DNA of 11,993 bases from DASVDK01 sp036562265 [NCBI: Thermodesulfobacteriota bacterium] (GTDB lineage Bacteria > DASVDK01): NCBI GenBank assembly GCA_036562265.1, contig DATCKS010000286.1, positions 1 to 11,993 of the forward strand, read 5' to 3'. The notes under the pieces are model-generated. The model was not told the origin of the DNA, searched no databases, and worked only from the letters and a program-made list of their open reading frames with translations. Both the position numbers and the translations under genes were made by a program. Positions 1-11,993 of this stretch are shown here, piece by piece. Position 1 is the first letter of the stretch, and every line of letters begins with the position of its first letter.

Positions 1-38
1 GCCTCCTCCTCTCCGCCTACCGCCACGCCTCCTGACCT

Positions 39-61
39 GGGGTCAGGCCTTTACGTTTTCC
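39..61 (-). repeat. 23-bp dispersed repeat, copy A (inverted)
   Basis: On the minus strand this reads GGAAAACGT followed by AAAGGCCTGACCCC. It matches copy B (162-184) at 21 of 23 positions in the opposite orientation. The two form a pair of inverted arms around about 100 bp of non-coding DNA. Just to its left, bases 33-45 form a small palindrome (TGACC-TGG-GGTCA) that uses the repeat's own end. Three more copies lie at 9181-9253. The function is not known from the sequence. It could be a REP-like intergenic repeat or the arm of a small non-autonomous element. Confidence 0.8.
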
Positions 62-161
62 TCGGCAGTTGCGTTCGGCCCTCGAGGGTTTCCGGACACT
101 TGCCGGCGTGGTCGCGGTCGAACGCCAATGTTCTTCGGTACTTTCGCGGACCTGGGGGCGT

Positions 162-184
162 GGAAAATGGAAAGGCCTGACCCC
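162..184 (+). repeat. 23-bp dispersed repeat, copy B
   Basis: This reads GGAAAATGG followed by AAAGGCCTGACCCC and is identical to the copies at 9181 and 9231. It ends 44 bp before the -35 box of the predicted lipA promoter, pointing toward lipA. The stretch around it (1-228) holds no gene that I can support. Confidence 0.85.
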
Positions 185-228
185 GCGGGACGTCAACCGG
201 CGTTCTGTCAGGGTGCTGGCGCCCCACC

Positions 229-257
229 TTGAGCGAAATAGGCCTCTCGCCTACAAT
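229..257 (+). promoter_or_regulatory. Predicted sigma70-type promoter of the lipA operon
   Basis: The -35 box TTGAGC (229-234) matches 4 of 6 consensus bases. A 17-base spacer follows, then the -10 box TACAAT (252-257), which matches 5 of 6. Transcription would start near 264. That leaves a leader of about 50 bases before the Shine-Dalgarno sequence of lipA and argues against a lipA start at the TTG at 229, which lies inside this -35 box. No other plausible promoter was seen between here and lipB, so this may drive the whole operon. Confidence 0.6.
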
Positions 258-302
258 TTCTGCTTGCATTCGGCCGGGATACCGGCCAAATTCCGCGGTC
301 CC

Positions 303-309
303 GAGGAGG
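303..309 (+). promoter_or_regulatory. Shine-Dalgarno sequence that decides the lipA start
   Basis: GAGGAGG is a seven-base match to the anti-Shine-Dalgarno sequence. Six bases later, in the lipA frame, is the codon ATC (316-318) where an ATG would be expected. No ATG, GTG or TTG lies at a workable distance. The next in-frame standard-type codons are TTG at 370 and 406, neither with a ribosome site of this quality. Confidence 0.55.
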
Positions 310-315
310 CGTCCC

Positions 316-1302
316 ATCTCTACCGATCCAGAGCGCAGCCGACCCCGGTTCGCGCCGACCCGCGCCCGGTTGCCGGTCGTCCCGCCGGAGGCGCCGGGGG
401 CGCCCTTGCGCGGCAAGCCGGCCTGGCTGCGCGCCAAGGCCCCGGGCGGTCCGAACTACGTCCGTCTCACCAACCTCATGCGAGGCCTCGACCTCCACAC
501 GGTCTGCGAGGAGGCGCACTGCCCGAACATCGGCGAATGCTGGGAGTCGGGCACGGCCACCTTCATGATCCTGGGGGACGTCTGCACCCGGCGGTGCGGC
601 TTCTGCGCCGTCAAGACCGGCCGGCCGGGGGCGCTCGACCTCGGTGAACCGGAGCGGGTCGCCGACGCCGTCGAGCGCATGGGGCTTGCCCACGCGGTGA
701 TCACGAGCGTGAACCGCGACGAACTCCCCGACGGCGGCGCGGCCATCTTCGCCGAGACGATCCGCGCGATCCGGCGCCGCATGCCGAACACCTCCATCGA
801 GGTCCTCATCCCGGACTTCCTCGGCAAGGAGGGACCGCTCACGCTCGTCCTCGAGGCGGGCCCCGACATCCTCAACCACAACACCGAGACGGTGCCGCGC
901 CTCTACCGGGAGGTGCGGCCGAGCGCCCGCTACGAGCGGACGCTCACGCTCCTCGAGCGGGCCAGGCGCTGGTCGGATACCCGCACGGGCGGCCGCATGC
1001 TCGTGAAGAGCGGCGTCATGCTCGGTCTCGGCGAGACGCCGGAGGAGATCCGGCAGACGATGCGCGACCTGGTCGCGCACGGCTGCCACGTGCTCACGCT
1101 CGGCCAGTACCTCAGGCCGACGCTCCAGCACCTGCCGGTGAAGCGGTACGTGCCACCCGCGGAGTTCGAGGCCTACCGGATCGAGGGGCTCGCCATGGGC
1201 TTCCGCCACGTGGAGAGCGGCCCGCTCGTCAGATCGTCCTATCATGCGCGCGAGCAGGTCGTCGACGCGCGCGCGTCCGGAGACACGATCACCCATGGTT
1301 GA
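316..1302 (+). CDS. lipA: Lipoyl synthase (radical SAM)
   Basis: LipA inserts two sulfur atoms into the octanoyl group carried on a lipoyl domain, making lipoate. Counting from codon 316, the auxiliary-cluster cysteines are C64, C69 and C75 (CEEAHCPNIGEC). The radical-SAM CX3CX2C cysteines are C90, C94 and C97 (CTRRCGFC). The C-terminal RSSYHA motif holds the conserved serine that binds the auxiliary cluster. All features of an active enzyme are present. The length of 328 residues fits the family (E. coli LipA has 321). The start is uncertain: ATC at 316 has the only strong Shine-Dalgarno sequence and lies after the predicted transcription start. TTG 229 would be upstream of that transcription start, and TTG 370 or 406 would give a shorter N-terminus before the conserved KPAWLRAK. 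The stop overlaps the next gene by 8 bases, so translation is probably coupled. The natural substrate is probably the E2 encoded downstream. The family call is secure. Confidence 0.96.
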   Translation: MSTDPERSRPRFAPTRARLPVVPPEAPGAPLRGKPAWLRAKAPGGPNYVRLTNLMRGLDLHTVCEEAHCPNIGECWESGTATFMILGDVCTRRCGFCAVKTGRPGALDLGEPERVADAVERMGLAHAVITSVNRDELPDGGAAIFAETIRAIRRRMPNTSIEVLIPDFLGKEGPLTLVLEAGPDILNHNTETVPRLYREVRPSARYERTLTLLERARRWSDTRTGGRMLVKSGVMLGLGETPEEIRQTMRDLVAHGCHVLTLGQYLRPTLQHLPVKRYVPPAEFEAYRIEGLAMGFRHVESGPLVRSSYHAREQVVDARASGDTITHG

Positions 1303-2692
1303 CACGGCGTACGACCTGATCGTCATCGGTTCCGGGCCCGGCGGCTACGTGGCCGCGATCCGGGCGGCGCAACTGGGATTGCGCGTGGCCTGCGTCGAGC
1401 GCGACCGGCTCGGCGGCGTCTGCCTCAACATCGGCTGCATCCCCACCAAGGCGCTCCTGCGCAACGCCGAGATCCTCCAGCTCTTCAGCCGTGCGAAGGA
1501 GTGGGGCGTTTCGTTCGAGAGCTTCCGGGCCGACTGGAGCGAGGCGGTCAAGCGGAGCCGGAAGGTCGCCGACAAGATGAACAAGGGGGTCGAGTTCCTC
1601 TTCAAGAAGAACAAGGTCACCCACGTTCAGGGGACGGGGGCCCTTCTCGGCGGCGGCCGGGTCGAGGTCACCGGCCCGAACGGCGCGAAGCAGACGCTCT
1701 CGGCCTCGAAGGGGATCATCCTCGCCACCGGCTCGCGGCCGCGCGCGATCCCGTTCATGCCGATGGACGGCCAGACGGTCATCTCGTCCACCGAGGCGAT
1801 GCTGCGCGAGAGCACGCCGAAGCGCCTGGCGATCGTCGGCGCCGGAGCGGTCGGCGTGGAGTTCGCCGACATCTACGCGGCCTACGGCACGCAGGTCACG
1901 TTGATCGAGATGCTCCCCCACATCCTGCCGCTCGAGGACGAGGAGATCGCCGCGGTCGTCGCCCGCTCGTTCAGGAAGCGCGGCATGACGCTCCTCACGT
2001 CGGCGAAGGTGGAGTCGTTCGAGAAGCGGGGCGGCGTGGCGCGCCTCGCCGTGACGGTCGACGGCAAGACCGAAACCGTCGAGGCCGATGCGGTCCTCGT
2101 CGCGGTCGGCCGCCAGGCCAACGTCGAGGGGATCGGGCTCGAGAAGGCGGGCGTCCAGGTGGAGCGGGGCTTCATCAAGGTGGACAGCCGCTTCCGGACG
2201 ACCGCAGAGGGGATCTACGCCATCGGGGACTGCATCGGCGGCTCGCTCTGGGCCCACAAGGCGATGGCCGAAGGCGTGGCGGTCGCCGAGGGCCTGGTCG
2301 GCGAGACGCCCGAGGTGAGCTACGCGTCGATGGCCGGCTGCACCTACTGCCACCCGCAGGTCGCGTCGGTCGGTCTCACGGAGAAGAAGGCCCGCGAGCA
2401 GGGGCTCGACGTCAAGGTGGGCAAGTTCCCGTACACCGCCTCCGGCAAGGCGGCGGCTCTCGGCGAGACCGAGGGGCTCGTCAAGATCGTCTCGGACGCG
2501 AAGACCGGGGAGCTGCTCGGCGTGCACATCGTCGGCGCCGAGGCGACCGAGATGATCGCGGAGGCGTCGCTCGCCCGCTCGCACGAGGCCACGGTCGAGT
2601 CGGTGCACCGGACGGTCCACGCGCACCCGACCCTGTCGGAGATGATGGGGGAGGCGGCGCTGGCGGCCGAGGGGCACGCGATCCACATCTAG
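1295..2692 (+). CDS. lpdA: Dihydrolipoyl dehydrogenase (E3), first copy
   Basis: This cytoplasmic flavoprotein re-oxidises the dihydrolipoyl group of an E2 or of glycine-cleavage H protein, passing electrons through FAD to NAD+. Its 465 residues are the normal length. The FAD-binding GSGPGG is at about 12-17. The redox disulfide is C43 and C48 ([13 protein letters not shown]). The NAD-binding site is GAGAVGVEF, and YAIGDC is the second FAD motif. The dimer-interface catalytic pair is H444 and E449 (HPTLSE). ATG 1295 is chosen because the protein then begins just before the FAD fold. The upstream in-frame ATG at 1244 would add 17 arginine-rich residues inside lipA and has no ribosome site. It overlaps the lipA stop by 8 bases and sits 28 bases before sucA. 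A second E3 gene lies at 6948. The two differ around the disulfide (LNIG versus LRVG), so they may serve different complexes, though this is not proven. Confidence 0.95.
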
Positions 2693-2720
2693 CTTTCGCA
2701 TCGAGAAGGAAGACGGACGC

Positions 2721-5594
<2,874 letters not shown>

Positions 5595-5629
5595 CGTTGG
5601 CCGCGAGGCGTACGGCGAAGCGGCTAACG
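5595..5629 (+). promoter_or_regulatory. Intercistronic hairpin directly after the sucA stop
   Basis: CGTTGGCCGC (5595-5604) pairs with GCGGCTAACG (5620-5629) over 10 bp with a single G-U pair, leaving a 15-base loop. The stem begins at the first base after the sucA stop codon. No T-run follows, so it is not a classic intrinsic terminator. It could be a partial terminator, an RNA-processing signal or an mRNA-stabilising element that sets the E1 to E2 ratio. The rest of the gap (5630-5708) is GC-rich, with a run of alternating GGCC/CCGG, and holds no gene. Confidence 0.5.
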
Positions 5630-5708
5630 GCGCGGGGCCGGCCGGCCGGCGACGGCTCGGCAGGCGTCCGGCAACGCGCGAACGATCGAACAGGGGGCAC
5701 GTCCATCC

Positions 5709-6944
<1,236 letters not shown>

Positions 6945-6947
6945 GGC

Positions 6948-8339
6948 GTGGCACGCGCGAAGCACGACCTCGTCGTCATCGGATCGGGCCCGGGCGGCTA
7001 CGTCGCGGCCATCCGCGGCGCGCAGCTCGGCCTGAACGTCGCCTGCGTCGAGAAGGAGGCGGCCCTCGGCGGCACCTGCCTCAGGGTCGGGTGCATCCCG
7101 AGCAAGGCGATGCTCGAGTCCTCGGAGCTGGTCCACGAGGCGAAGAACGGCTTCTCGGCCCACGGGATCCGCGTCTCGAAGGTCGAGGTCGACCTGGCGG
7201 CGATGCTCAAGCGCAAGGACGAGGTCGTCCGCGTCAACACGAACGGGGTCGAGGGGCTCTTCAAGAAGAACAAGGTCACGCGCTACCTCGGTCACGGCCG
7301 CCTCGCCGGTCCCGGCCGCGTCGTGGTGACCGGCCAGGACGGCGAGATCGACCTCGAGGCGACCCACATCCTCATCGCCACCGGCAGCAAGGTGGCGCCG
7401 CTCAAGGGCGTGACGATCGACGGCGACCGGATCGGCACGTCCACCGAGGCGCTCGCCTATCCCGAGGTCCCGAAGCGGCTCGTCGTGATCGGCGCCGGAG
7501 CGATCGGGCTCGAGCTCGGATCGGTCTGGGCGCGGCTCGGCTCGAAGGTGACCATCCTCGAGTACGCGGACCGGATCCTCCTCGGGATGGACGCCGAGAT
7601 CGCCGCCGAGGCGCAGCGGGTGCTCGCGCGCCAGGGGCTCGAGTTCCGGCTCGGCGCCCGCGTCACCGGTGCGAAGGTGAACGGCAAGACGGCCGTCGTC
7701 GAGGCGGAGGGGATGGAGCCGATCACCGCCGACCGGGTCCTCGTCGCCGTCGGCCGCATCCCCAACACCGACGGCCTCGGCCTCGAGTCGGTGGAGATCA
7801 AGACCGACGAGAAGGGTCGCATCCCGGTGAACGAGCACTTCGAGACGACCGCCCGGGGGATCTACGCCATCGGCGACGTGATCCGCGGCCCCATGCTGGC
7901 GCACAAGGCCTCCGAGGAGGGGATCGCCTGCGTCGAGCGGATCGTCACCGGCTACGGCCACGTCAACTACGACGCCATCCCGAACGTCGTCTACACCAAC
8001 CCCGAGGTCGCCTCGGTGGGGAAGACCGAGGAGGAGCTGAAGGCCGCCGGCATCCCGTACCGCAAGGGGGTCTTCTTCTTCCGCGGCAACGGCCGGGCGC
8101 GCGCCCTCGGGCAGATCGACGGCCGGGTGAAGATGCTCGCGCACGCCGAGACCGACCGCATCCTCGGGGTCCACATCGTGGGGCCCAGGGCCGGGGACCT
8201 GATCGCCGAGGCCTCGGTCGCGATCGAGTTCGGGGCCTCCGCGGAGGACCTCGGGCGCGCCACGCACGCCCACCCGACGCTCGCCGAGGTCCTCAAGGAG
8301 GCGGCGCTCGCCGTGGACGGGAGGGCCATTCACGCCTAG
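6948..8339 (+). CDS. lpdA: Dihydrolipoyl dehydrogenase (E3), second copy
   Basis: This is a second complete E3 of 463 residues. It has the FAD-binding GSGPGG (12-17), the redox cysteines C44 and C49 (GGTCLRVGCIPSK), the NAD site GAGAIGLEL, the second FAD motif YAIGDV, and the catalytic pair H442 and E447 (HPTLAE). No key residue is missing. The start is GTG 6948, with GAGGTG (6936-6941) inside the end of sucB as the ribosome site. The gap to sucB is only 3 bases, so it is probably translationally coupled to E2. That position makes it the best candidate for the E3 of this 2-oxoglutarate dehydrogenase. The GGTCLRVGCIPSK disulfide region resembles E3s of mitochondrial and alphaproteobacterial 2-oxoglutarate dehydrogenases. 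The assignment of each E3 to a particular complex is inference from position. Confidence 0.96.
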   Translation: MARAKHDLVVIGSGPGGYVAAIRGAQLGLNVACVEKEAALGGTCLRVGCIPSKAMLESSELVHEAKNGFSAHGIRVSKVEVDLAAMLKRKDEVVRVNTNGVEGLFKKNKVTRYLGHGRLAGPGRVVVTGQDGEIDLEATHILIATGSKVAPLKGVTIDGDRIGTSTEALAYPEVPKRLVVIGAGAIGLELGSVWARLGSKVTILEYADRILLGMDAEIAAEAQRVLARQGLEFRLGARVTGAKVNGKTAVVEAEGMEPITADRVLVAVGRIPNTDGLGLESVEIKTDEKGRIPVNEHFETTARGIYAIGDVIRGPMLAHKASEEGIACVERIVTGYGHVNYDAIPNVVYTNPEVASVGKTEEELKAAGIPYRKGVFFFRGNGRARALGQIDGRVKMLAHAETDRILGVHIVGPRAGDLIAEASVAIEFGASAEDLGRATHAHPTLAEVLKEAALAVDGRAIHA

Positions 8340-8419
8340 GCCGTGCTCCAGCGCCCACGGACAAGGCGCCGGCGCGCCCCGGCCGGGCCCGTAACCGGTC
8401 CATGGAGACAGGTCTCGCC

Positions 8420-9112
8420 ATGCTGCCGTCGATGCGGCTCGTCGTTCGCGACCTCGGCCGCGTCCCCTACGCCGAGGCGCTGGCGCTCCAGCGCGACCTC
8501 GCCCGCCGGCGCCAGGCTGGCGAGGTGCCCGACACGCTCCTCCTCTGCGAGCACCCGCCGGTCGTCACCCTCGGCCGCGCGAGCCGGCCGGAGCACCTCC
8601 TGGCCTCGCGCGAGGCGCTCGAGCGGCGCGGCGTCGAGGTCTTCGACGTCGAGCGGGGCGGCGACGTCACCTACCACGGCCCCGGGCAGCTCGTCGGGTA
8701 CCCGATCGTCGACCTGCACGGCCACGGCCGCGACCTCCACCGGTACCTCCGCGCGCTCGAAGAGGTGATCATCCGGACGGCCGCGGCGTTCGGCGTGGCG
8801 GCCGGCCGGGTGGCCGGGAAGACCGGCGTCTGGGTCGGCGACCGGAAGCTCGCCTCCATCGGCATCCACGTGAGCCGCTGGGTCTCCTGGCACGGCCTCG
8901 CCGTGAACGTGACCGATGAAGCGCTCCCCGGGTTCGAGCTGATCGTGCCGTGCGGCCTCGCCGGCGTACGGATGACGACGCTCACCCGCGAGGCGGGGCG
9001 CCCGGTGACGCTGACCGAGGCGAAGCGGGCGCTCGAGGAGGCGTTCCGCGCGGCGTTCACCCCCTCCCCGGCCGGCGCCGCCCCCGGCTCCCACCCGGGC
9101 GGATCACGCTGA
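8420..9112 (+). CDS. lipB: Octanoyl-[ACP]:protein N-octanoyltransferase
   Basis: LipB starts lipoate synthesis by moving octanoate from acyl carrier protein to the lysine of a lipoyl domain. Motifs seen: RGGDVTYHGPGQLVGYPI in the substrate pocket, K143 in RKLASIGIHV and C178 in IVPCGL, the Lys/Cys acyltransfer dyad. Length is 230 residues. The last 20 or so are a Pro/Gly/Ala-rich tail beyond the conserved fold. ATG 8420 is chosen because GGAGACAGG (8404-8412) lies just upstream. ATG 8402 has no ribosome site, and ATG 8432 is a possible shorter start. It follows lpd2 by 80 bases of GC-rich sequence with no gene. Together with lipA at the other end of the operon, it supplies the complete de novo lipoylation route. 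It is probably the last gene of the operon, since a possible terminator, repeats and a new promoter follow. Confidence 0.96.
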   Translation: MLPSMRLVVRDLGRVPYAEALALQRDLARRRQAGEVPDTLLLCEHPPVVTLGRASRPEHLLASREALERRGVEVFDVERGGDVTYHGPGQLVGYPIVDLHGHGRDLHRYLRALEEVIIRTAAAFGVAAGRVAGKTGVWVGDRKLASIGIHVSRWVSWHGLAVNVTDEALPGFELIVPCGLAGVRMTTLTREAGRPVTLTEAKRALEEAFRAAFTPSPAGAAPGSHPGGSR

Positions 9113-9119
9113 GGAGCGG

Positions 9120-9168
9120 GTCGGGGCGGCTCCGGGCCACGGAGGACGAGCGGGGGGCAGGCCCCGAC
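9120..9168 (+). terminator. Possible terminator structure after lipB
   Basis: GTCGGGGC (9120-9127) and GCCCCGAC (9161-9168) are perfect 8-bp inverted arms. The 33-base loop holds a second small hairpin (CTCCG 9130-9134 with CGGAG 9140-9144). It starts 8 bases after the lipB stop. There is no T-run, so termination here would not be classical. In such GC-rich DNA, chance pairing cannot be excluded. Confidence 0.3.
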
Positions 9169-9180
9169 GTGTGCCCGCCG

Positions 9181-9253
9181 GGAAAATGGAAAGGCCTGAC
9201 CCCGTGGAAAACGGAAAGGCCTGACCCCCTGGAAAATGGAAAGGCCTGACCCC
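9181..9253 (+). repeat. Three tandem 25-bp copies of the dispersed repeat (C, D, E)
   Basis: The repeat unit (GGAAAATGG or GGAAAACGG, then AAAGGCCTGACCCC) begins at 9181, 9206 and 9231. The period is exactly 25, with two-base spacers GT and CT. Copies C and E are identical to copy B at 162; copy D has one change (T to C). The array ends 13 bp before the -35 box of the predicted ispH promoter, in the same orientation relative to the gene as copy B has to lipA. The rest of the lipB-ispH gap holds no gene. Confidence 0.9.
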
Positions 9254-9266
9254 GGGGGCGCGCGGC

Positions 9267-9295
9267 TTTACTTCCGCCGGCGCCTGGGGTACAAC
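9267..9295 (+). promoter_or_regulatory. Predicted promoter of ispH-deoC
   Basis: TTTACT (9267-9272), a 17-base spacer, then TACAAC (9290-9295). Each box matches 4 of 6 consensus bases. The -10 core TACAA is the same as in the predicted lipA promoter. Transcription would start about 35 bases before the ispH GTG, whose ribosome site GGAGGAG lies at 9325-9331. Confidence 0.45.
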
Positions 9296-9336
9296 CATCA
9301 CGATTTTCCAGTGGTTTCCCGATCGGAGGAGACGGC

Positions 9337-10173
9337 GTGATCGTCAACCGGGCCGACACCGCGGGCGCCTGCTTCGGCGTCAAGCGCGCCTTCGACATCG
9401 CCATGAAGACGGCGAAGTCGGACGAGCGCGTGGTCATGCTGGGCGACATCGTGCACAACGAGCACGTCGTCCGGAAGATCGACGAGGCCGGCGTGAAGGT
9501 GATGAAGGACCTCGACTCGGTGCCGGCCGGCAGCACGCTCATCCTGCGCGCCCACGGCGCCGTGCCGGAGATCTATGAAGCAGCCGAGCGGCGCGGCCTC
9601 AAGATCGTCGACGCCACCTGCCCCATGGTCTTCGAGATCCACGACGAGGTGAAGGCGCTCGCCCAGGAGGGCTACAGCATCGTCGTCATCGGCGACCACG
9701 GCCACGACGAGGTCGTCGGCATCGCGGGCCAGGTGCCGGGCGCCATCGTCGTGTCGAACCCCGACGAGGCTCGCCTCATCCCGCGCAAGCGCAAGATCGG
9801 CGTCGTCACGCAGTCGACCCAGAACATCGACAACGTCCGGCAGTGCGTGGCGGAACTCTGCCTCAAGAGCCGCGAGGTGCGCTTCATCAACACCATCTGC
9901 GCGCCGACGAAGAACCACCAGGACGAGATCCGCACCATGCCGTACGAGAACGACGTCATGGTGATCATCGGCTCCCGCACGAGCGCCAACACCTGCCGCC
10001 TCACCGAGATCTCGCGCAGCATCAACCCGCGCACCTACCAGGTGGCCAGCGCGGCCGAGCTCAAGCCCGAGTGGTTCGTCGGCGCCCGCACCGTGGGCGT
10101 CTCGGCCGGGGCGTCCACGCCCGACTGGATCATCGACGAGGTCGTCGCCGCGCTCGAGCGCATGAACCCGTAG
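9337..10173 (+). CDS. ispH: 4-hydroxy-3-methylbut-2-enyl diphosphate reductase
   Basis: This iron-sulfur enzyme catalyses the last step of the MEP pathway, reducing HMBPP to isopentenyl and dimethylallyl diphosphate. The three cluster cysteines are C12 (AGACFGVK), C95 (DATCPMV) and C188 (NTICAPTK). Other active-site residues of the family are in place: the histidines of IVHNEHVV and LRAHGAV, H123 and E125 in GHDEV, the threonine of TQST, the Ser/Asn of SRTSANTCRL, and the serine of GVSAGASTPD. Length is 278 residues, near the short end of the family. It starts with GTG at 9337, preceded by a strong ribosome site (GGAGGAG, 9325-9331). The gap to the next gene is 12 bases, suggesting co-transcription with the deoC-like gene. 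There is no obvious link to the lipoate operon upstream, and it has its own candidate promoter. Confidence 0.96.
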   Translation: MIVNRADTAGACFGVKRAFDIAMKTAKSDERVVMLGDIVHNEHVVRKIDEAGVKVMKDLDSVPAGSTLILRAHGAVPEIYEAAERRGLKIVDATCPMVFEIHDEVKALAQEGYSIVVIGDHGHDEVVGIAGQVPGAIVVSNPDEARLIPRKRKIGVVTQSTQNIDNVRQCVAELCLKSREVRFINTICAPTKNHQDEIRTMPYENDVMVIIGSRTSANTCRLTEISRSINPRTYQVASAAELKPEWFVGARTVGVSAGASTPDWIIDEVVAALERMNP

Positions 10174-10185
10174 CCGGGGCCGTTC

Positions 10186-10857
10186 GTGCCCGACGCGCTC
10201 ACCCGCGCCGACCTCGCGCGCCTCATCGACTGGGGCGCCGCCCTCAAGCCGGACCTCACCGAACGCGAGCTTGCCGCCGTCTGCGACGAGGCGGTCGCCC
10301 TCGGCGTGGGGCAGCTCTGCGCGCAACCCTCGCTGGTCGAGCCGGCGGTGCGGCGGCTCGGCGGCCGGGTGGCGGTCGTCTCGGTGGCCGGCTTCCCCCA
10401 CGGCGCCTCGCTCCCGGAGGTGAAGGCGCGCGAGGCGGCCCTGGCGGTGGAGCAGGGGGCGGCCGAGGTCGACATGGTGATCAACCGGGGCTGGCTCAAG
10501 GGGGGTGAGGCGAGCCGGGCGGAGGCGGACGTCGCGGCGGTCGTGCGCGCCGCGGCGGGCCGGCCGGTCAAGGTGATCCTCGAGACGGCCGCGCTTACCG
10601 AGGCCGAGGCGCGGCTCGGCTGCCGCGTGGCGGAGGCCGCCGGCGCCAGCTTCGTGAAGACGTCGACCGGCTTCGGCTACCCCGGCGCGACCGTGGCGTC
10701 GGTGCGCCTCCTCGCCGAGGCGGTGGGGGGACGGCTCGGCGTGAAGGCCTCGGGTGGGATCCGGACCCTCGCCGACACGCGCGCCATGCTGGCCGCCGGG
10801 GCGACGCGGATCGGCACCAGCGCCGCGAAGGCGATCCTCGACGAGTTCGAATCCTGA
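10186..10857 (+). CDS. deoC: Deoxyribose-phosphate aldolase-like protein
   Basis: DeoC cleaves 2-deoxyribose 5-phosphate to glyceraldehyde 3-phosphate and acetaldehyde in deoxynucleoside breakdown. The protein has 223 residues, about the size of short bacterial DeoC proteins. The catalytic residues are present: Schiff-base lysine K158 in FVKTSTGF, K187 in VKASGGIR and D96 in EVDMVIN. GFPHG is also conserved. Two motifs depart from the usual form. The N-terminal IDHTLLKP is IDWGAALKP here, losing the His-Thr pair and gaining one residue, and the usual CVNP reads CAQP. The fold and catalytic lysines make aldolase activity likely, but the substrate may differ from deoxyribose phosphate. The start is GTG 10186, chosen because it precedes the conserved LxxLID segment; the ribosome site (CCGGGG) is weak, so coupling to ispH is likely. 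The stop is 2 bases before a hairpin array. Confidence 0.87.
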   Translation: MPDALTRADLARLIDWGAALKPDLTERELAAVCDEAVALGVGQLCAQPSLVEPAVRRLGGRVAVVSVAGFPHGASLPEVKAREAALAVEQGAAEVDMVINRGWLKGGEASRAEADVAAVVRAAAGRPVKVILETAALTEAEARLGCRVAEAAGASFVKTSTGFGYPGATVASVRLLAEAVGGRLGVKASGGIRTLADTRAMLAAGATRIGTSAAKAILDEFES

Positions 10858-10859
10858 AA

Positions 10860-10933
10860 GGTAGCTACCCCAGGTAGCTACCCCTCGGGCGGGGCCTCGG
10901 CGCGGTCCATCCGCGCCCGCGGGACGACCCGCG
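10860..10933. terminator. Three consecutive hairpins between converging deoC and usp
   Basis: First, GGTAGCTACC occurs at 10860-10869 and 10873-10882. It is its own reverse complement, so the two copies pair as a 10-bp stem with a 3-base loop. On the minus strand this stem is followed by TTT, so it suits termination of usp transcription. Second, GGCGCGG (10899-10905) pairs with CCGCGCC (10911-10917) across a 5-base loop. Third, CGCGGG (10918-10923) pairs with CCCGCG (10928-10933) across a 4-base loop. Together they probably block read-through from both sides. A role of the tandem palindromes as a protein-binding site is an alternative. Confidence 0.6.
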
Positions 10934-10952
10934 CCCGGGCGGCGGCGTCCGC

Positions 10953-11426
10953 CTACGCGGCGTTCTGCGCCTGGGGGCCCTGCTGCGGTTGCTTGACGAT
11001 GAGGACCGGACAGGGAGCCTTGACCGCGACCTCGTTGCTGATCGAGCCGAGGAGGAGCCGCCTGATGCCGGTCAGGCCGCGGGAGCCGACGACGAGGAGG
11101 TCGGCCCGTTCCTCGGCCGCAAGCTTGACGATCTCGTCCGCCACCGGGCCGTGCCGCAGCACCGTGCGGCAGGGGACGCCGCGTCGCGCGGCGTCGGCTG
11201 CGGCGCGGGCGAGCACCTCCTCCCCGGTCGCCTGGGGGGCCGTCTCCGGCGTGGGAGGCAGCACGACCATCCCCATCGGATCGACCGTCACCTTGGCGGT
11301 TGGCGGCACGACGTAGAGCACGAGGACCTCGTCGGCCCGGTACTCGACGGCCAGGTCGAGGGTGTACTGGAGCGCGTAGTCCGACCACTCCGAGCCACCC
11401 GTGGCGACGACGATGCGTCGAATCAT
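10953..11426 (-). CDS. Universal stress protein, UspA family
   Basis: This is a single-domain Usp protein of 157 residues, cytoplasmic, of the nucleotide-binding type. The sequence begins with the usual strand MIRRIVVATGGSEWSDYAL. It carries the ATP-binding signature G-x2-G-x9-G-S as GSRGLTGIRRLLLGS, followed by the final strand CPVLIVK. The last residues are a short Gln/Pro tail. A 26-residue insert-like segment with several prolines (VDPMGMVVLPPTPETAP) follows the second strand, as is common in this family. ATG 11426 is supported by a near-perfect ribosome site (GAGGAGGT, complement of 11430-11437). Usp proteins are linked to stress survival, but the partner or signal cannot be told from sequence. 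The gene stands alone on the minus strand, converging on deoC. Confidence 0.93.
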   Translation of the reverse strand: MIRRIVVATGGSEWSDYALQYTLDLAVEYRADEVLVLYVVPPTAKVTVDPMGMVVLPPTPETAPQATGEEVLARAAADAARRGVPCRTVLRHGPVADEIVKLAAEERADLLVVGSRGLTGIRRLLLGSISNEVAVKAPCPVLIVKQPQQGPQAQNAA

Positions 11427-11520
11427 GGGACCTCCTCGAGCCGGCCGACCGGTTCAGCGGAGGGCGCGGGGGCAGGCGCCGCGGGATGATTCCCCTGTCC
11501 TTTCGATGATTTGCGGCTAC

Positions 11521-11549
11521 AGATTGGCGGCAGGGCTGGCCATTGTCAA
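11521..11549 (-). promoter_or_regulatory. Possible usp promoter
   Basis: On the minus strand a perfect -35 box TTGACA lies at 11544-11549. At 17 bases spacing the -10 region reads CAATCT, a poor match. The position, about 95 bases before the usp ATG, is plausible. The weak -10 box suggests activator dependence or a different sigma factor, if this is a promoter at all. Confidence 0.3.
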
Positions 11550-11566
11550 GCGCTTTCCCGCGGTCA

Positions 11567-11578
11567 CTTGTCGACAAG
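11567..11578. promoter_or_regulatory. 12-bp perfect palindrome upstream of usp
   Basis: CTTGTCGACAAG is a perfect 12-bp palindrome. It lies 17 bases upstream of the candidate -35 box of usp, a position suited to a dimeric regulator. No gene is seen in 11427-11697. Besides this palindrome and the promoter candidate, nothing else in that stretch stands out. A chance occurrence is possible. Confidence 0.25.
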
Positions 11579-11697
11579 CTGCCGGGTTCGACGGCCCGAT
11601 GCCCCGCCCACCTGCCGCTGCGAGCCTCTATCGACGCCGCGGCGCCCGTGCTAGAAATCGAGCAGTCGATACGGCCTGAGATCTCGACCACCCGCGT

Positions 11698-11736
11698 GCG
11701 AGAGTGGCGGAACTGGTAGACGCGCCAGACTTAGAA
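11698..11736 (+). pseudogene. Truncated tRNA-Leu(UAG), 5' half only
   Basis: The sequence follows a leucine tRNA base by base. The acceptor strand is GCGAGAG (11698-11704), then TG, the D stem GCG (11707-11709), the D loop GAACTGGTAGA, CGC (11721-11723) and G26. The 5' anticodon stem is CCAGA (11725-11729) and the 7-base loop CTTAGAA (11730-11736) has anticodon TAG. The expected 3' stem TCTGG is absent: the next bases are GCAGG. No variable arm, T arm or acceptor 3' strand follows in the remaining 257 bases. The match ends exactly at the 3' side of the anticodon loop, as expected for insertion by a tRNA-targeting recombinase. Without the 3' half this copy cannot yield a tRNA by itself. Confidence 0.75.
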
Positions 11737-11773
11737 GCAGGACCAGTACGTCCGAGGAGTGCGGGAGGGTCTG

Positions 11774-11805
11774 GAGGGGGCTGATTTTCTTAGGTTGGCC
11801 CCCTC
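11774..11805. terminator. 8-bp hairpin between the tRNA fragment and the HTH gene
   Basis: GAGGGGGC (11774-11781) and GCCCCCTC (11798-11805) are perfect inverted arms around a 16-base loop. It lies about 57 bases past the stop of the minus-strand HTH gene and could end its transcription. There is no T-run after the stem on either strand, so the role is uncertain. Confidence 0.35.
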
Positions 11806-11862
11806 GGGCTCTCCCTGGCCTTCCGGCCCGTTCCGTCGAGTCGAAACACTTCGAGAAACACC

Positions 11863-11993
11863 CTACGCCCCCTCCGCTTCCACCCGCTTGGCCACCCAGG
11901 TTTCCACGTCTTCCAGCCTGAACATGACCCTCGACAGCACCCGAACCGGAGGCAGGTACTCGGACCGGCCCTTGCGCTTGGCGAGGTCGTAGA
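11863..11993 (-). CDS. Excisionase-like helix-turn-helix protein, 3' part (runs off the window)
   Basis: Only the last 42 codons are in the window; the N-terminus lies beyond the right edge. The visible end reads YDLAKRKGRSEYLPPVRVLS then RVMFRLEDVETWVAKRVEAE and two more residues. This matches the second half of the excisionase/AlpA-type winged helix-turn-helix domain (HTH_17 family): the recognition helix end (xYDLAK), a PPVRV wing and the closing helix with FRLEDVETWV. Such small DNA-binding proteins direct excision or regulate integrative elements. The stop is TAG at 11863-11865 (CTA on the plus strand). Its location, 127 bases from a tRNA gene cut at the anticodon loop, fits a mobile element. 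A recombinase gene is not visible here and would have to lie to the right. The role in excision is inferred. Confidence 0.65.
   Translation of the reverse strand, partial: YDLAKRKGRSEYLPPVRVLSRVMFRLEDVETWVAKRVEAEGA

Follow-up and report, generated by a model that had tools for sequence, protein, structure and literature searches.

In the usual scheme of integration into a tRNA gene, the element brings a 3' half of the gene, and the junction beside the host 5' half shows an intact tRNA. The sequence-only reading of the DNA examined here held that an element normally restores the tRNA; this is right for most elements, but two exceptions are known, namely displacement of the 5' half and tRNA-dependent lysogeny. 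Among the candidate islands of the Islander set, a 5' fragment is found in 159 of 3919 and a 3' fragment in 3760 of 3919, and anticodon-centred crossovers are common (2083 of 3919); under the published rules, the interval has to contain an integrase along with an intact tRNA (PMC4383910). In T7-like cyanophages, the attP sites correspond to the initial 39 bp of tRNA-Leu. PCR revealed integration of P-SSP7 and S-TIP37, with both int and attP reported as required, while stable lysogens of these two phages were not found in that study (PMC8776855). Marine phage contigs are also reported to have tRNA-Leu fragments of 39–46 bp beside integrases (PMC3861242).

In tRNA-dependent lysogeny, the host tRNA gene is split at a core of ~10 bp and is not rebuilt, its place being taken by a phage tRNA of that isotype. 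The phages described include the mycobacteriophages Fionnbharth, Gaia and others, of which Gaia targets tRNA-Leu(CAA) through an 8-bp core. The authors regard this lifestyle as plausible outside the actinobacteriophages and cite the Lactobacillus prophage Lj965 (PMC10865867). A similar tRNA substitution was described for Sinorhizobium prophages (PMC11476347, PMC12429752).

The window, i.e. the whole stretch of 11,993 nucleotides analysed, contains near its right end a 5' half of tRNA-Leu(UAG) that breaks off at the anticodon loop (Table 1). We regard this site, with good though not complete confidence, as a 5' attachment junction, on the host side, of an integrated element (a phage or a genomic island) whose tyrosine integrase used the anticodon loop of tRNA-Leu(UAG). 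Like the 5'-fragment islands of the Islander set, the window shows a 5' tRNA fragment upstream of the presumed island, but the interval of those islands includes an integrase and an intact tRNA, and here neither is seen. The half in the window and that of P-SSP7 are both 39-bp first halves of tRNA-Leu ending at the same anticodon-loop base. However, the halves of P-SSP7 and S-TIP37 sit in the phage beside an integrase, whereas that in the window adjoins chromosomal genes, and the loop of P-SSP7 is CTTAAAA (UAA) as opposed to CTTAGAA (UAG) in the window. With tRNA-dependent lysogeny the locus shares a host tRNA that is cut and is not rebuilt at the junction seen. Its target differs, as UAG does not appear in Table 2 of the article on tRNA-dependent lysogeny (PMC10865867).

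Table 1. Features around the tRNA-Leu(UAG) half, in window positions.
Feature	Position	Strand	Basis
Universal-stress-protein-like gene, last chromosomal gene before the tRNA	10953..11426	-	ORF; NF012000 29.1 bits, cut-off 189
Intergenic region upstream of the tRNA half, expected place of the tRNA promoter	11427..11697		67.9% G+C
5' half of tRNA-Leu(UAG): acceptor strand, D-arm, anticodon stem, whole anticodon loop	11698..11736	+	Sequence reading, blastn, ARAGORN comparison
Presumed common core GACTTAGAA	11728..11736	+	Inferred; counterpart of the 9–11 bp cores ending GACTNAAAA in five provirus records
Presumed element side, start of the integrated DNA	11737..11993		tRNA left at 11737; 64.6% G+C
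Strong hairpin, perhaps a convergent terminator	11763..11815	+	68-nt stretch 11755–11822 folds at -43.9 kcal/mol, z -4.08
Terminal part (3') of an HTH_17-like gene: last 42 codons and stop codon	11863..11991	-	ORF; Pfam HTH_17 E=0.014; cut by the window end

The tRNA-Leu(UAG) half and its break

The half is 39 nt long and reads GCGAGAG TG GCG...CGC G CCAGA CTTAGAA, with the acceptor strand GCGAGAG, the anticodon stem CCAGA and the 7-nt loop CTTAGAA that holds the anticodon TAG. The last tRNA base, 11736, is also the last base of the anticodon loop, a known sublocation of crossovers. From 11737 on the sequence departs from the tRNA: GCAGG stands where pairing needs TCTGG, and the sequence there is GCAGGACCAG. 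The 39 nt match complete tRNA-Leu genes: blastn aligned them with a phage record (E=1e-6, 92.5% over 40 nt) for which ARAGORN reports an intact tRNA-Leu(UAG) at the same place. The string TGGTAGACGCNNNAGACTTAGAA, closely similar to that of the window, was present in 24 viral contigs. A pairing stem and an ARAGORN call of tRNA-Leu(UAG) accompanied it in 23 of these; the remaining one, L061, contains a group I intron.

No tRNA was called by ARAGORN in the 11,993 bases of the window, and none reached the Rfam gathering score there (best RF00005 match 13.5 of 29 bits, E=6.8). A 3' half, sought on both strands of the window as an anticodon stem and an acceptor strand with at most one mismatch each and a T-loop between them, was absent. 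The two observations from which the sequence-only reading had started, a tRNA-Leu(UAG) cut at the end of its anticodon loop and followed by non-tRNA sequence, and a 3' half missing at this junction, were thus borne out. A TCTGG motif in a hairpin arm near 11770 was considered as the start of a 3' half displaced by a short insertion; this was ruled out, as neither a T-arm nor an acceptor strand follows.

We judge it far beyond chance that a tRNA half of 39 nt should stop at a known crossover position. The earlier reading had allowed for a wrongly joined contig, which would switch at 11736/11737 from an intact tRNA locus to unrelated DNA. Conserved tRNA genes can indeed mislead assemblers. The join, however, coincides with the recombination point of known elements, a point which an assembler has no reason to prefer, and we consider such a misjoin improbable. 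Whether the gene stays split or is rebuilt elsewhere, a 3' half is expected to be missing here, so that its absence alone does not point to misassembly; the junction can be explained without a misjoin.

A tRNA gene interrupted by an intron is another reading. Such a case is the phage tRNA-Leu(UAG) of L061 (IMGVR_UViG_3300012663_000801, 96,954 bases), where the group I intron at 2362–2548 (RF00028, E=5.7e-18) lies in the anticodon loop, with the same bases GACTTAGAAG at the break as in the window, and a strong hairpin follows the half in the window. But L061 has both an intron match and a 3' exon ~200 nt on, and the window has neither. With L061 as the positive control, no match to Intron_gpI (RF00028) appeared in 11600–11993 up to E=10, and no 3' half was found in the following 257 nt, part of which is filled by the HTH-like frame; an intron longer than 257 nt would still be compatible with this result. 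A group I intron within the window was accordingly rejected, there being no group I core match and no 3' exon in it. We regard an intron, or a split tRNA with its two halves ligated at the RNA level, as very improbable altogether, and the latter in a bacterium as close to negligible: trans-spliced tRNA halves are known from archaea and are not known to occur in bacteria.

The chromosomal side

The genes to the left of the tRNA are lipA, a dihydrolipoyl dehydrogenase gene, the genes for 2-oxoglutarate dehydrogenase E1 and E2, a second dihydrolipoyl dehydrogenase gene, lipB, ispH, deoC and the universal-stress-protein-like gene. The name of the last one is tentative, as its NF012000 score lies below the model cut-off. 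Since these are ordinary housekeeping genes, the left side is taken as chromosome: the 5' fragment lies upstream of the presumed element and has housekeeping genes (229–11426) beyond it. No match to the sigma-70 consensus was found in the intergenic region before the half.

The closest IspH relatives are 63% and 65% identical, and those of OdhA up to 65%. A tblastn comparison of the window proteins with the loci gathered revealed no common gene order; besides IspH, only the two dihydrolipoyl dehydrogenases were matched (L034). As no relative shares the gene order, there is no empty site for comparison. Pattern searches for broken halves gave 0 in 18 and 0 in 396 genomes, none of which is known to be close to the host.

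Two further features of this side were recorded. The two dihydrolipoyl dehydrogenase genes (1244–2692 and 6948–8339) differ from each other and, within a single cluster, stand on either side of the E1-E2 genes of 2-oxoglutarate dehydrogenase. REP-like repeats (GGAAAATGGAAAGGCCTGACCCC) are located at 39–65, 153–188 and 9172–9257 as one inverted and four direct copies, and three of the copies form a tandem with 25-nt spacing between lipB and ispH.

The presumed element side

Only 257 nt of the presumed element lie within the window. Their G+C content (Table 1) compares with 71.5% in 1–11697, and that of the left intergenic region, 11427–11697, is also lower than the latter value. The layout is of the near-end type, with chromosome, 5' half, foreign-looking DNA and no integrase in the 257 nt; an integrase, a far junction or a cognate tRNA are not visible because the window ends at this distance from the break.

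The hairpin just inside the junction has CTTAG in its loop and lacks a T-run, and a terminator scan of the region gave no terminator-like site. Without a T-run, it is not a standard terminator. Matches of micro-RNA families of Rfam to the hairpin were far below their gathering scores and were rejected. Direct repeats, which might serve as arm-type sites, were not detected in 11690–11993.

The minus-strand gene that the sequence-only reading had described as HTH_17/Xis-like is present as a reading frame with its stop codon at 11863–11865, a 5' end beyond 11993 and a GC3 of 0.88. Its identity as Xis did not hold to the same degree. The 42-residue fragment matches positions 24–50 of the 51 in the HTH_17 profile (PF12728) at 16.1 bits, with a cut-off of 27, and phrog_66, 'excisionase and transcriptional regulator', at E=0.26. 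With so short a fragment and an HTH_17 score below the cut-off, 'Xis-like' is a lead rather than an identification; on these weak grounds the neighbouring gene may encode an excisionase. Integration into the anticodon loop is the part of the earlier interpretation that we retain as the best one. The best plasmid match of the fragment was to HTH proteins of two Bradyrhizobium plasmids (E=0.6), and there was no match among the phages. HTH_17 was also sought at E 0.01 in the proteins beside 18 tRNA-Leu halves, using 43 of the 57 listed frames; none of the 43 matched, and the idea that HTH_17 is the usual first gene beside such halves was rejected.

Three exact patterns from the element side retrieved no relatives from the viral contigs. 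The junction query, compared with phages (138 records) and plasmids (108 records), gave no match covering 80% of its length, and among the matches listed (20 phage and 20 plasmid), all but one plasmid match concerned the tRNA part.

The absence of a confidently identified mobile-element gene on the right would suit a decayed tRNA pseudogene that lost its 3' half to a deletion, or to an old element that has since gone, and that has chromosomal DNA on its right. A random deletion ending exactly at the loop would, however, be a coincidence, and the lower G+C content and the HTH_17-like frame start at once after the break. We find this origin unlikely, and prefer an attachment junction.

Broken tRNA-Leu halves in viral contigs

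Viral contigs were surveyed for tRNA-Leu 5' halves in which the next base is not T. The survey yielded 91 loci, all of which were read. Two are not true breaks, namely L061 with its intron and L135, in which ARAGORN finds a complete tRNA-Leu; many of the remaining loci are P-SSP7-like, as judged by near-identical halves. Because the pattern itself partly imposed the exact loop end, the survey does not show independently where breaks can occur. With the patterns used, the only viral match to a broken half with UAG as the target was the intron-containing L061.

For the presence of integrases, 38 of the 91 records were examined, which were picked for varied junction sequences and included L061 and L135. 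The integrase domain PF00589 scored above the cut-off in 29 records and was not found in nine. It lay at most 1 kb from the half in 22 records and at the opposite end of the record in seven. In 19 of the 38, the domain lay on the strand of the half and preceded it by no more than 1 kb, which is also the arrangement of P-SSP7. The latter phage possesses only the tRNA-Leu 5' half, which ends after the loop CTTAAAA, and no tRNA was called by ARAGORN in an 8-kb stretch of it. In the IMG/VR record G494, which has the same junction sequence as P-SSP7, the end of the integrase domain lies upstream of the half at a distance of at most 150 nt.

Five of the seven records with a distant integrase (G492, G510, G514, G516, and G517) have both halves of a host tRNA-Leu flanking the element. 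The far 3' half had to show perfect pairing of its acceptor strand with the near 5' half and at most one mismatch in the anticodon stem; one such mismatch was present in each of G510 and G514 and none in G492, G516, and G517. The common core is 9 bp (GACTTAAAA or GACTCAAAA) in four proviruses and 11 bp in G492, and the core criterion applied for tRNA-dependent lysogeny was ~8–17 bp. The 45 nt that precede the far core do not form a tRNA 5' half, so these five proviruses leave the host gene unrestored. Each of them has a complete tRNA-Leu at most 1 kb from the integrase domain, with the same anticodon as the split gene: UAA in G510, G514, and G516, and CAA in G492 and G517. ARAGORN labels the complete tRNA of G514 and G516 as Phe(AAA), which we read as Leu(UAA). 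Judging from their sequences, the five proviruses carry the signature of tRNA-dependent lysogeny on tRNA-Leu(UAA) or tRNA-Leu(CAA), and they follow the same plan as the phages described for that lifestyle. The host flank of G510 has a tRNA-Cys before the tRNA-Leu(UAA) half, an order known from Gammaproteobacteria.

Other records show parts of this layout. G496 has a complete tRNA-Leu(UAA) near the integrase, and a far 3' half was not found in it; in the stretch of G509 that was read, neither a complete tRNA-Leu nor a far 3' half was detected. The records G515 (1408–2904) and G523 (904–1924) each have an integrase domain close to a broken 5' half of tRNA-Leu and to a complete tRNA-Leu with the anticodon of that half. 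These two lack the two-ended layout, and the half of G515 has no recognisable acceptor strand. RF00005 matched in 8 of the 21 records given, G515 and G523 being two of these eight.

Possible fate of the split gene

The junction is very probably a real attachment junction, of a kind already known, with a UAG target not seen in the scans made here; it belongs to a minority sort. What speaks against this view is that no integrase is seen, that the HTH_17 match is weak and has no counterpart beside the other halves examined, that arm-type repeats and a viral UAG target of this kind were not found, and that the pattern searches of 18 and 396 genomes gave no broken halves. A tyrosine integrase would have cut the chromosomal tRNA-Leu(UAG) gene inside its anticodon loop and rejoined the DNA there. 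The left chromosome would have kept the host 5' half, with the element beginning at about 11737, and the 3' half would have been displaced to the far end, beyond the contig, where the integrase is also to be expected as in the five proviruses. We infer a far junction in which GACTTAGAA is followed by TCTGG...CTCTCGC, its expected layout being GACTTAGAATCTGG, then the variable arm, the T-arm and CTCTCGC.

By wobble rules, tRNA-Leu(UAG) is normally the sole reader of CUA codons. From this rule follows the need for a replacement: survival of the cell would require a tRNA-Leu(UAG) borne by the element, restoration of the gene at the far end, or another copy in the host. By analogy with the five proviruses, it is quite possible, if short of probable, that the gene stays split and that the element encodes its own tRNA-Leu(UAG), as in tRNA-dependent lysogeny. 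The sequence-only reading had listed disruption of this copy and a 3' half at the far end as separate options; under tRNA-dependent lysogeny they are the same thing.

The attP of the element may instead carry a full tRNA-Leu(UAG) 5' half with its own promoter, and an intact gene would then lie at the far end, leaving the half in the window as a relic. An attP of the P-SSP7 type would provide for this, as would the 159 of 3919 Islander islands with a 5' fragment (PMC4383910), and the 19 of 38 survey records with an integrase upstream of the half, on the same strand and at most 1 kb away, point in the same direction. Against it, a rebuilt gene was found in none of the five proviruses in which both ends could be read, and we rate this course of events as a serious but rather doubtful possibility. 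The evidence for a gene that stays split comes from the five proviruses and that for a rebuilt one from Islander and the cyanophages. The left junction alone fits either scheme and separates neither.

A tRNA 5' half that ends at the anticodon loop with chromosome upstream is, as a single junction, enough to suspect an element of this kind. The basis for this is the survey, in which five proviruses have the cognate tRNA and the split in tRNA-Leu(UAA) or tRNA-Leu(CAA) falls on the same base. A finder that needs an intact tRNA plus a fragment, according to the published Islander rules (PMC4383910), is not expected to report the unrestored kind. Tentatively, the element at this locus might permanently split the host tRNA-Leu(UAG), sustain the cell with its own copy and make the host dependent on it. 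If the tRNA is left broken, the element would act as an addiction device, the host relying on an element-borne tRNA; if true, the range of tRNA-dependent lysogeny would come to include a high-G+C lineage and an anticodon that our scans did not show.
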